From: an uncultured Clostridia bacterium
Lineage (GTDB): Bacteria > Bacillota > Clostridia > Oscillospirales > Ruminococcaceae
Assembly: GCA_947584375.1 (NCBI GenBank)
Contig: CANPWL010000019.1
Location: 1 to 36,814, forward strand
Length of the DNA: 36,814 bases
Reading direction: 5' to 3'
Part shown: positions 12,826 to 17,693 of the stretch, piece after piece
How the letters are laid out: each line of letters opens with the position of its first letter
How positions within the stretch are numbered: the stretch's first letter is position 1
Made by a program: the position numbers and the translations under genes
Notes under the pieces: generated by a model
Databases searched by the model: none
Told to the model about the DNA's origin: nothing
Seen by the model: only the letters and a program-made list of their open reading frames with translations

Positions 12826-12856
12826 AAAAACTCCTAATAATTTTAATACTTATGAT

Positions 12857-12991: not shown

Positions 12992-13240
12992 TTATGCTGG
13001 TTCTTTGTCTTCAATTTCAACCATAATTTTTTTACCTTCTTTTGCAGCTTTTGCTCGCATTACTATGCGGATAGCTTTTGCAATTCTTCCTTGTTTTCCA
13101 ATTACTCTGCCCATATCGCTGGGTGCAACGTTAAGGTGAAACGTTATAATACCTTCTTCGTTTGGTTCATCTTCAATAACCTCAATGGAGCTCTTGTCTT
13201 CAACAAGCTCAGAAACTATTGTCATTAGTAGTTCTTTCAT
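12992..13240 (-). CDS. khpA: KH-domain RNA-binding protein KhpA, 82 aa
   Basis: This is a small single-KH-domain RNA-binding protein of the KhpA/YlqC family. In related bacteria it works with KhpB/EloR in RNA metabolism and cell-envelope control. The KH core has the GxxG loop in MGRVIGKQGRIAKAIRIVM, followed by strand KKIMVEIEDKEPA. It starts MKELLMTIVSELVEDKSSIE; ATG 13240 is preceded by GGTGAC at a good distance, whereas the ATG four codons earlier is too close to any site. The length is standard. It is the last gene of the SRP/S16 operon, separated from rpsP by an unusual 225-base gap that holds a structured RNA. Confidence 0.93.
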   Translation of the reverse strand: MKELLMTIVSELVEDKSSIEVIEDEPNEEGIITFHLNVAPSDMGRVIGKQGRIAKAIRIVMRAKAAKEGKKIMVEIEDKEPA

Positions 13241-13273
13241 AATAGTCACCATACCTTTTTGGGTTTATGATCT

Positions 13274-13477
13274 GTTCCGCCAACGGAACTTCTGTGAAAT
13301 TTTTCGACATCTGCTCAAAATGAGCGTTAAAAAGCGTTTTCACTCTTTCTTGTCTTAATACCCCACCAAGAGGAAGCCTACGCTTTTGCAGTAGGCTTAT
13401 AAAAGCAGGAATGATATGTTGAAATTTGTGTGGGGTTTGTAATGAACTCCTGCTTTTAGTCGGTATTAAAGAATACC
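13274..13477 (-). ncRNA. Structured pseudoknotted RNA between rpsP and khpA
   Basis: Read on the minus strand, the rpsP-khpA gap contains, in order: hairpin GGTATT-CTTT-AATACC over the rpsP stop (13477-13462); a perfect 11-bp stem TAAAAGCAGGA (13458-13448) with TCCTGCTTTTA (13410-13400); inside its loop ACCCCAC (13436-13430), which pairs with GTGGGGT (13366-13360) beyond the stem, giving a crossing pseudoknot; an 8-10 bp hairpin AAGCCTAC/GTAGGCTT (13398-13374) nested between; then hairpins at 13325-13313 (GCTCA-loop-TGAGC) and 13289-13274 (GTTCCG-CCAA-CGGAAC type). No good reading frame was seen. It could be a leader controlling khpA, a processed small RNA or a riboswitch-like element. I recognise no known class. 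Confidence 0.7.
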
Positions 13478-13708
13478 ATTCTTTTTTAACAGTGTCTTTA
13501 CAGTATCTGTCGGCTGTGCACCGTTAGCGATCCAAGATTTAGCTTTTTCACCGTCAACACTTACTACTGATGGTTCTTTAGTTGGATCATAGTATCCTAT
13601 TTCTTCTATGAATCTTCCATCCCTAGGATATCTTGAATCAGCAACAACAATACGATAGAAAGGAGCTTTTTTAGCGCCCATTCTTCTCAATCTGATTTTA
13701 ACTGCCAT
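13466..13708 (-). CDS. rpsP: 30S ribosomal protein S16, 80 aa
   Basis: This is a small-subunit ribosomal protein that binds 16S rRNA during early assembly. The sequence opens [20 protein letters not shown] and continues [20 protein letters not shown] then DPTKEP, which are diagnostic of S16. It ends [20 protein letters not shown] then IL. GGAGGTGA lies before the ATG. It follows ffh by 71 bases, as in Bacillus. The stop codon is embedded in a small hairpin that begins the structured RNA ahead of khpA. Confidence 0.98.
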
Positions 13709-15906: not shown

Positions 15907-17274
15907 TTAACCCAAAGTGTTAAATATCATTATTGCTATGTTGCAATATAAAAATACAGAGCATGCGTCAACAATAGTTGAAATAAGAGGCGCTGCCATA
16001 ATTGCAGGGTCAAAGTGAAGTTTTTTTGCAATCATAGGAAGAACACAGCCTACTGTTTTTGCAAGTATAACAGTTGCTATGATGGAAAGTCCTATTACAA
16101 ATCCAAGAAGTGCTGAATTAACATCAGCGTCATTTCGGTATACAAACCATATTCTGACTCCGTTTACCGCCGCCAGAATAAAGCTCACTAGCAGAGCTAT
16201 TCTAAATTCTTTAAACATTACCTTAAAAAAGTCTTTAAATTCTATTTCGTCAAGAGCAAGGCTTCTTATGACGATTGTTGATGATTGAGAACCGCAGTTG
16301 CCTCCTGTACCTGTAAGCATGGGAACAAAAGAGAATAATATGGGTATTGACACCAAAAGATTCTCATAGTGGTTTATCACAGCACCTGACAGGGTAGCTG
16401 ACAGCATCAAAAACAAAAGCCACGGTATTCTGCTTTTTGCATGGGAAAAAACAGAGGTGTTGAAATATGATTCATCAGTGGGCGAGATACCTGCCATCTT
16501 GTGAATATCCTCAGTTGTTTCTTCATGGATAACATCGATAATATCGTCGACTGTGATAATTCCGACTATTCTTTTTTCGTTATCAACAACAGGTATAGCC
16601 ATAAGGTCGTAATTTCTTATAGTGTTTGCAACCTCTTCCTGGTCATCAAGGGTGTTCGCATAAATTATATTTGTATCCATGATGTCTTGGATCTTGGTTT
16701 CTTCATCTGCGGTGATAAGGTCAAGAAGTTCAACTGTTCCTATTAGTTTCCTTAATTCGGTTACATAACAGGTATATATTGTTTCCTTAACAACACCGAC
16801 CTGTCTTATCTTTTTCATAGCATCCGCAACGGTCATATCCTTTGCAAAGAAAACATATTCGATAGTCATAAGACTTCCTGCACTGTCATCAGGATAGTTT
16901 AAGACTTCATTGATCCTTTTTCTTGTTTGGGAATCTGTATTTTTTAAAATTCTTGATACGACATTTGCAGGCATTTCCTCAATAAGGTCCACCGTGTCGT
17001 CAAGAAACAATTCATCTAAAACTCTTCTAAGTTCGTTTTCAGAAAAGGAGTTGATAAGTTTTTCCTGAATTTCACTGGGCAGGTATGAAAATATTTCGGA
17101 CGCATTATCTTTGGGAAGAATTCTGAACACCAAAGTTAAATCCATTTCATCAATTTCTTCCATCAATGATGCGACATCATATGGATTCAGGTCTTTTAAG
17201 AAAGCCTTAAGCTTTGTATACTGCTTGTTTTCAATAAACTCAATGGCAGTTTGCTGAATTGTTTTTTCGTCCAT
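15907..17274 (-). CDS. mgtE: Magnesium transporter MgtE, 455 aa
   Basis: This is an integral-membrane Mg2+ channel whose cytoplasmic part senses Mg2+ and closes the pore. The N domain (about residues 1-130) has the helical repeats with DLNPYDVASLMEEIDEMDL and VDLIEEMPANVVSRIL. The two CBS domains follow (about 130-255) with TCYVTELRKLIGTVELLDLI and MAIPVVDNEKRIVGIITVDD. Five membrane helices end the protein; the family motif MLTGTGGNCGSQSSTIVIR is present. ATG 17274 has AGGAGG 8 bases upstream; the ATG two codons earlier is too close. It is preceded by an M-box riboswitch, a terminator and a small leader ORF, and followed by a terminator. Confidence 0.97.
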   Translation of the reverse strand: MDEKTIQQTAIEFIENKQYTKLKAFLKDLNPYDVASLMEEIDEMDLTLVFRILPKDNASEIFSYLPSEIQEKLINSFSENELRRVLDELFLDDTVDLIEEMPANVVSRILKNTDSQTRKRINEVLNYPDDSAGSLMTIEYVFFAKDMTVADAMKKIRQVGVVKETIYTCYVTELRKLIGTVELLDLITADEETKIQDIMDTNIIYANTLDDQEEVANTIRNYDLMAIPVVDNEKRIVGIITVDDIIDVIHEETTEDIHKMAGISPTDESYFNTSVFSHAKSRIPWLLFLMLSATLSGAVINHYENLLVSIPILFSFVPMLTGTGGNCGSQSSTIVIRSLALDEIEFKDFFKVMFKEFRIALLVSFILAAVNGVRIWFVYRNDADVNSALLGFVIGLSIIATVILAKTVGCVLPMIAKKLHFDPAIMAAPLISTIVDACSVFLYCNIAIMIFNTLG

Positions 17275-17320
17275 CGGCATATCCTCCTTAATTTATTTAG
17301 CAAGACAGCCGTGGGTTTAC

Positions 17321-17494: not shown

Positions 17495-17529
17495 TAATAA
17501 TATAATGATACAGTACTATAATGACTGCA

Positions 17530-17693
17530 AACGTTCAAGCTTCAGCTTCACAGGGCATAGAATTATTGCGTTGGAACTGCGTTAGGTTATGCCTTGAATT
17601 CGACATAGCCTGTTGACCAGCTGATAGTGTCTCCACCATTTTGCGGCAGCATTCCGTATCCCTTTGGTAGCCTCACCTACCGAATTATTTAAT
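17530..17693 (-). promoter_or_regulatory. M-box (ykoK leader) magnesium riboswitch
   Basis: The minus strand carries the conserved M-box beginning TCGGTAGGTGAGGCTACC (about 17684-17667), then GGGATACGGA and ATGCTGCCGC, GGTCAACAGG in the middle and a distal TATGCC...GGCATA arm pair. These match the remembered consensus GTTAGGTGAGGCTCC, GATACGCTGCTGCC and GGTCAACAG closely. The class binds several Mg2+ ions and turns off Mg2+ importer genes when Mg2+ is plentiful. The target here is mgtE. The boundaries are approximate. Confidence 0.93.

Follow-up and report, generated by a model that had tools for sequence, protein, structure and literature searches.

A predicted pseudoknotted RNA conserved between rpsP and khpA of Ruminococcus and related genera, a candidate leader of a gene for a KH-domain protein

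In the preQ1-I, preQ1-II and SAM-II riboswitches the loop of a hairpin pairs with a tail that lies next to, or overlaps, the Shine-Dalgarno sequence. The RNA element described here shares this loop-tail architecture, but it has no match in Rfam, is followed by khpA and has no known ligand. Pseudoknots are also present in ribosomal-protein leaders of Escherichia coli, i.e. those of rpsO/S15 and of the S4 alpha operon. Like these leaders and the candidates described in PMC7247131, the khpA element appears to be lineage-limited, cis-acting and specific to the gene of an RNA-binding protein, although khpA is not a ribosomal-protein gene. Likeness in architecture extends to the gene 32 operator of phages T4 and RB69, where a pseudoknot is located 5′ of the Shine-Dalgarno sequence of a gene for a nucleic-acid-binding protein (PMC535899). 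That pseudoknot is the nucleation site of the repressor gp32, and constitutes an autogenous operator of a single-stranded DNA-binding protein, known from T4 and also supported for RB69; it differs from the khpA element in its phage origin and in a less structured part of more than 40 nt located 3′ of the pseudoknot (PMC535899).

The RNA-binding proteins KhpA and KhpB are widespread and are regarded as candidate partners of small RNAs in Gram-positive bacteria without Hfq and ProQ, and their targets differ between species (PMC12456014, PMC10117718). KhpA has been cross-linked to RNA in cells of Bacillus subtilis (PMC12456014), and KhpB co-precipitates with KhpA in Enterococcus faecalis (PMC10117718). 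In the portions of the KhpA literature available to us, we found no RNA recognition sequence of this protein.

The window, i.e. the whole stretch of DNA analysed (36,814 nt, from an uncultured member of the Ruminococcaceae), carries on its minus strand the gene order ylxM-ffh-rpsP-gap-khpA. The rpsP gene (13466..13708, minus strand), encoding ribosomal protein S16, is located upstream of khpA (12992..13240, minus strand), whose start codon was chosen to match that of its relatives (an alternative ORF start lies at 13252) and whose product is a KH-domain protein (KH_KhpA-B, PF13083, 71.7 bits). A second KH_KhpA-B match above the cut-off, in an open frame of 257 aa, is likely to represent the KhpB of this genome. 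Between positions 12850 and 13800 no promoter-like site was found on the khpA strand (three were found, all on the opposite strand), and the element RNA is therefore probably co-transcribed with rpsP. A consensus scan of the same interval, confined to the window, revealed no terminator-like site on the khpA strand (two were found, both on the opposite strand). Elsewhere in the window, an M-box magnesium riboswitch (17519-17691, minus strand; 99.1 bits) precedes mgtE (15907-17280), which is ordinary and expected.

The original prediction placed within the rpsP-khpA gap a stem (P1), a pairing of its loop that crosses the stem (P2) and a separate hairpin (P3), and all three are borne out by the minus-strand sequence. 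P1 is formed by the 5′ arm UAAAAGCAGGA (13448..13458) and the 3′ arm UCCUGCUUUUA (13400..13410), which were assigned from sequence and from the covariation of P1; it has 11 perfect base pairs (13458-13448 with 13410-13400) and two more pairs inward, one of them G-U. P2 (7 bp; 13436-13430 with 13366-13360) joins the strand ACCCCAC, located inside the P1 loop (13430..13436) and assessed by a swap test and pair counts, with GUGGGGU (13360..13366), which in most relatives lies directly 5′ of the khpA Shine-Dalgarno sequence; it crosses P1, which results in a pseudoknot. The optional P3 (13374..13398), located between P1 and the P2 3′ strand, consists of AAGCCUAC (13398-13391) paired with GUAGGCUU (13381-13374) and of two inner GC pairs, in total 10 bp with one bulge. 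A possible P4 (13348..13371), in which UCUUG (13371-13367) would pair with CAAGA (13352-13348), contains the P2 3′ strand within its loop.

Flanking hairpins had also been predicted. The one covering the rpsP stop codon (13477-13472 with 13467-13462) and a GUUCCG/CGGAAC hairpin (13289-13274) are present in the window, but neither is conserved: the former was detected in 7 of the 15 gaps of the window's genus (L009-L011 and L015-L018, L009 being the window), while the hairpins 3′ of P2 sit in a stretch of about 100 nt common only to the window and L016 among these 15 gaps. The view that the pairing exceeds chance was upheld, both by folding of the 261-nt strand 13240-13500 (z = −4.28; 0 of 200 shuffles as stable, in a fold without the pseudoknot) and by the relatives, which keep P1 and P2 through compensatory changes.

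Homologues of the element were identified between rpsP and khpA in five genera of the same family as the window, with Ruminococcus albus among the carriers. The genera are denoted by handles (g1, g66, g72, g113, g126 etc.), g1 being that of the window and g66 that of R. albus; the family was taken as that of R. albus because its locus L167 carries the same letters as the g66 locus L033. Within g1, khpA is present in 15/15 genomes, and P1 and P2 in 15/15 main rpsP-khpA gaps. The window and nine relatives possess P3, while five loci (L019-L023) are of a short form that lacks P3 and differs in sequence (P1 GCAAGGC/GCCUUGC; P2 UCCAC/GUGGA, CCCAC/GUGGG or CCCGC/GUGGG); P3 is likewise absent from the R. 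albus type, such as L033. One g1 genome (G006) contains on another contig a second, diverged khpA-rpsP pair (L024), judged by eye to be without the element and perhaps a contamination.

A family-wide search for khpA, positive in 280 of 297 genomes, yielded the four further carrier genera. The locus was obtained (i) from 26/29 genomes of g66, with the element in 26/26 (P1 of five loci was set by hand), (ii) from 14/16 genomes of g72 (12 in the data set), where L142 is cut at a contig end yet shows the motif and L146 is without the element, and (iii) from 3/4 genomes of g126, with two carriers and L153 without the element; (iv) in g113 all seven loci carry it (three in the data set). The 116 genera examined, out of 126 in the family draw, were compiled by hand and are mostly represented by one genome each, and absence elsewhere is thus given per genome. 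The median length of the rpsP-khpA gap is 108 nt with the element (67 loci) vs 42 nt without it (135 loci). A midpoint-rooted tree with 151 tips, built from two short proteins (RpsP and part of KhpA), groups 35 of the 37 carriers with three others in one clade (support 0.90); the two g126 tips fall outside this clade and are listed next to it.

We also searched with R1, a covariance model of P1 and its loop only, whose E-values are rough. Applied to 396 genomes it gave five matches, all in g1 (1 of 126 genera), and missed g66 and further g1 genomes; this first pass was too coarse for so short a model and was not used as evidence of absence. Among the fetched g72 and g126 loci, 14 of 17 were found at E ≤ 1 (the misses were L146, L147 and L153). 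In a set of 82 loci R1 missed the three g113 loci given and L101 (identical to L147), and its single weak match in another genus (L031, E = 0.0068) was not counted.

Base-pair changes provide a stronger argument for a conserved RNA than the fold does. When the arms of P1 (inner seven pairs) and P2 were joined in an ungapped alignment, the 33 distinct helix sets of 58 loci were paired in 98.8% of 429 cells, compared with 68.8 ± 1.5% in shuffled and at most 46.2% in slid controls, and two-sided changes were seen in 11 of 13 pairs. The P2 strand of each locus was chosen as the best partner of the CCNNC of the loop, and the paired share is thus partly obtained by construction, a bias that the two-sided changes and the slid controls do not share. 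The crossing stem, for which covariation among homologous gaps had been proposed as the check, does covary: P2 alone is paired in 97.5% of its cells, with two-sided changes in 4 of 6 pairs (U-A/C-G/A-U/G-C; C-G/U-A; C-G/U-A/G-C; A-U/G-C/C-G). With G-U pairs allowed, its core is complete (5/5) in 55 of 58 loci, and 4/5 pairs are formed in the three g113 loci. For P1 alone (37 sequences, 32 distinct), 91.5% of the cells are paired and 8 of 11 pairs have two-sided changes; its covariation score is 0.562, vs 0.252 ± 0.022 for shuffled and at most 0.207 for slid alignments. Two of five measures for P1 alone were not above shuffles, i.e. the number of pairs with two-sided changes (153/500 as high) and that of pair types (389/500).

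Swapping of loops among 56 distinct sequences gave a score of 17.08 with the own partner vs 15.49 ± 0.28 with swapped ones (0 of 5000 permutations as good, in a test that, like our other permutation tests, ignores relatedness). This signal comes mainly from g1 (18.6 own vs 14.3 across groups) and g126 (19.5 vs 15.2); the gain is small in g66 (17.04 vs 15.90) and g72 (16.03 vs 15.68). In g113 the result is reversed (13.0 vs 16.2), because P2 of this genus (UCCUG/CAGGA) is short and the GC-rich strands of the others score higher. An alignment-free finder, which accepts any hairpin with a loop able to pair at a site 10-30 nt ahead of the AUG, was positive in 66 of the 67 gaps picked as carriers (8.8/67 shuffled; a few loci were fetched twice), in 15 of 49 other gaps of at least 60 nt (7.1 ± 1.7 shuffled), and, irrespective of whether the element is present, in 61 of the 64 loci of the five genera that have both genes (L016, L146 and L153 were missed). 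For 52 of the 58 loci of the data set its best answer agreed with the annotated P1/P2, for five (L009, L062, L141, L147 and L032) it was a different pairing, and L016 gave none; in the case of the window (L009) the annotated pairing was missed because of its long spacing to the AUG. Taken together, comparison of the homologous sequences indicates that the element is almost certainly a conserved RNA.

The position of the element argues for its assignment to khpA. A spacing of 16-25 nt separates the P2 3′ strand from the khpA AUG in 53 of the 57 distinct gaps, with a median of 18 nt for the full set of 57; in most, the Shine-Dalgarno sequence is thus found within a few nucleotides 3′ of P2. The exceptions to this spacing are the window (121 nt), L016 (129 nt), L141 (44 nt) and L147 (40 nt). 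The distances from the rpsP stop to P1 (7-73 nt) and from P1 to the P2 3′ strand (6-67 nt) vary. Since the distance to the AUG is held and that to rpsP is not, the element is assigned to khpA. A stimulator of programmed frameshifting after rpsP was rejected on account of the same variation (7-73 nt) between stop codon and P1. We also discarded direct pairing of P2 with the Shine-Dalgarno sequence in g113, where the strand CAGGA ends 17-18 nt from the AUG and GAGG lies closer to it. A general anti-Shine-Dalgarno role of the P1 3′ arm was dropped as well, since g72 arms such as GUUCUGCC or GUUCCGACG do not fit; the R. albus type does fit such pairing (CCUUACC with GGUAAGG over the Shine-Dalgarno sequence).

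In many g66 and g72 loci the P2 3′ strand is located in the 8-nt loop of the short hairpin P4, which touches the Shine-Dalgarno sequence (stems CAUUU/GAAUG, UGAUUU/AGAUCA, GGUUU/AAACU, GGUAA/UUACU and GUUU/AAAC). A swap test of P4 with 41 distinct flanks from outside g1 gave 10.68 for the own vs 8.64 ± 0.38 for swapped arms (0/5000), and with all 52 flanks 9.13 vs 8.08 ± 0.38 (16/5000). For g1 alone (11 flanks) the test was negative, 4655 of 5000 permutations being at least as good, and the P4 of the window is thus not supported for its genus. One position of P4 is occupied, in 16 distinct strings, by A-U (7), G-C (5), U-A (2), G-U (1) and one mismatch; these pair types come from the 23 of 43 non-g1 loci that share one register, and in the remaining 20 the register differs, the loop is shorter or longer, or the stem is missing. 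Where P4 is present, P2 may join the two loops over 6 bp or form as an alternative to P4, and elsewhere it may be a plain pseudoknot. The P1 loop finds its best partner 5′ of the P2 strand, usually within P3, in 22 of 38 g66/g72 loci, and in L147 both partners match a single A-to-G substitution of the loop; the competing pairings of the P1 loop look like those of a switch. The loop letters YUAU, located 5′ of P2, are mostly kept in g66, g72 and g126. A transcription attenuator was rejected, given that the khpA strand of the window has no terminator-like site and that no long U run follows the P1 3′ arms of g66 and g72.

The copy of the window is an atypical specimen of the family, because its leader carries an insert. 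This extra stretch of about 100 nt (13250..13347, ends approximate; minus strand), which includes the 13289-13274 hairpin, separates the old Shine-Dalgarno site from the khpA start and, among the 15 genomes of the genus, is present only in the window and L016. The two stretches align with a local score of 81 (best of 300 shuffles, 42). The ffh fragments of the window and L016 share 83% identity, and those of the window and L010 or L011 83 and 84%; since the former pair is no closer, the stretch may have been gained once or lost elsewhere. Comparison with the relatives identifies UAAG (13354..13357, minus strand) as a decayed remnant of their Shine-Dalgarno sequence UAAGGAG. P1 and P2 being intact, the copy of the window probably retains some function; the insert would loosen the contact with the ribosome-binding site, and control of khpA in this species must be weaker or work differently. 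We also noted by eye an open frame (approximately 13343-13209, minus strand) that begins with GTG, has about 44 codons, crosses the insert and overlaps khpA in a different reading frame; the frame at the same position in L016 ends after two codons, and that of the window may be due to chance.

Association with khpA was examined in 84,980 species using the pattern GTAAGGY..TATCCCRC..GCCTTAC, which covers only the GTAAGG form of P1. Twenty-five stretches were retrieved, 22 from Ruminococcus and three from an "uncultured Clostridiales bacterium". A khpA start follows on the same strand, 22-45 nt downstream, in 23 of them. One of the other two (L177) ends just past the motif and is identical in its letters to L056, which precedes khpA; the last (L161) has no khpA and looks like a chance match. 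The conserved structured RNA is thus found upstream of a gene for an RNA-binding protein and, as regards the GTAAGG form, of no other gene. A repeat or mobile element was discarded, the genome of the window having no second copy (the next best match covers 25 nt, E = 0.05).

In agreement with the original view that the RNA belongs to no recognised class, Rfam 15 produced no match to the element in the window, the gap or 11 homologous loci. At gathering scores the window contains only the M-box and a tRNA, both outside the gap; the gap itself gave two chance-level matches (E = 1.5 and 2), far below gathering scores; and the matches of the 11 loci, with E = 0.5 as the limit, were confined to T-box, 6S and rsmX, each of them outside the element. 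No match to the preQ1 or SAM-II models, which we take to be included among the 4227 Rfam models, was obtained in any of these sequences. No khpA leader was among the matches listed in a literature search in which subscription papers are thinly covered and supplements left out, and "khpA" does not occur in the main texts of PMC7247131, PMC11109978 and PMC8632094. As judged by sequence comparison, the initial observation is that of a real RNA family, without a match in Rfam 15.

Other RNAs were observed close to khpA. A second type of pseudoknot precedes the gene in L098, L103, L212, L245, L246 and L046 (genera g22, g92 and g3) and is absent from the g22 locus L244 and the g3 loci L037, L097 and L247. 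Its P1 is GGCAAAGCC/GGCUUUGC, and its loop pairs as UUUCGUUA/UAACGAAA or UUCCGU/ACGGAA, 14-25 nt before the AUG. The loop sequence differs from that of the first type; the likeness consists in a pseudoknot before khpA. In g113, a 6S RNA match lies beside khpA (L025:1186-1404, plus strand; 47.8 bits, cut-off 46.4), and the gaps L025, L028, L032 and L240-L243 contain an extra hairpin of the GGCGGCGUACAUU...GUACGUUUGCC type after rpsP, upstream of P1.

We propose that the element is a leader of khpA. The C-rich loop displayed by the P1 hairpin would pair with GYGGG, located within a few nucleotides on the 5′ side of the Shine-Dalgarno sequence of khpA, creating a pseudoknot flush with the ribosome-binding site (H-type in short forms, possibly a contact between the loops of P1 and P4 in others). 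This closed form would hinder loading of the 30S subunit, and KhpA, alone or with KhpB, may bind the P1 loop or the pseudoknot and shift the balance, with feedback on its own synthesis as the result. To this explanation as a whole, i.e. leader, ribosome-binding-site pseudoknot and KhpA feedback, we assign a probability of roughly 0.5. Action in cis on khpA translation is very probable, whereas for KhpA or KhpA-KhpB as the effector, to which the identity of the gene points, we would put the chances slightly below even. A khpA leader was among the roles first suggested, and it is favoured by the held AUG spacing, the variable rpsP spacing and the khpA genes behind 23 of 25 scan matches. A purely steric effect at the start codon does not account for the window and L016, which keep P1 and P2 with the AUG 121 and 129 nt away.

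The same fixed spacing and the single gene found in the scan would also suit a pseudoknot without any effector, which sets a constant, low or standby-dependent level of khpA translation relative to the co-transcribed rpsP; a role of a pseudoknot in standby translation has been described for tisB (PMC7708055). This is an unlikely alternative, as the preserved YUAU letters suggest that something reads them and the better loop partners in 22 of 38 g66/g72 loci look like a switch. A switch of loop-loop type read by KhpA in g66 and g72 is likewise unlikely: the C-rich loop UAUCCCRC would pair either with a P3 strand or with the P4 loop, P4 being in contact with the Shine-Dalgarno sequence through its 3′ arm, folding of P3 would compete with the loop-P3 pairing, and KhpA bound to the loop would select the state. 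Conserved loop letters with alternative pairings, together with an architecture like that of the short preQ1 and SAM-II pseudoknots, might also point to a small-molecule aptamer abutting the Shine-Dalgarno sequence. Metabolite riboswitches, however, usually control several genes of a pathway, while the scan matches other than the contig end resembling L056 and the stretch without khpA all precede one gene; the restriction to a few genera and the lack of an Rfam match make this reading still more doubtful.

The remaining candidates connect the element with rpsP, after which it directly lies on the same strand. A leader read by S16 or another ribosomal protein would couple khpA to ribosome supply, but autogenous leaders normally precede the gene of their own protein, and here the distance to the rpsP stop varies, whereas that to khpA is held. 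In favour of this reading, an S16 leader candidate upstream of rpsP-rimM is reported in Flavobacteria (PMC7247131). The khpA element is downstream of rpsP, and we consider this coupling very unlikely. It is even harder to credit a 3′-UTR or processing element of the rpsP mRNA (a stability hairpin, an RNase site or a source of small RNA), as might be suggested in the window by the proximity of the rpsP stop and the hairpin covering it; that hairpin occurs in just 7 of 15 gaps of the genus, and the spacing is held to khpA, not to rpsP. The S16 target and the 3′-UTR small RNA, both entertained at the outset, are thus disfavoured by this spacing and by the association of 23 of 25 scan matches with khpA.

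If the switch-like reading were true, KhpA would have in this loop both a cis operator and a natural site of binding that sets its RNA specificity. For the preferred reading, that of a khpA leader, the conserved RNA before khpA represents a concrete candidate target of KhpA and a testable control circuit in Ruminococcus, bacteria of the rumen and gut.
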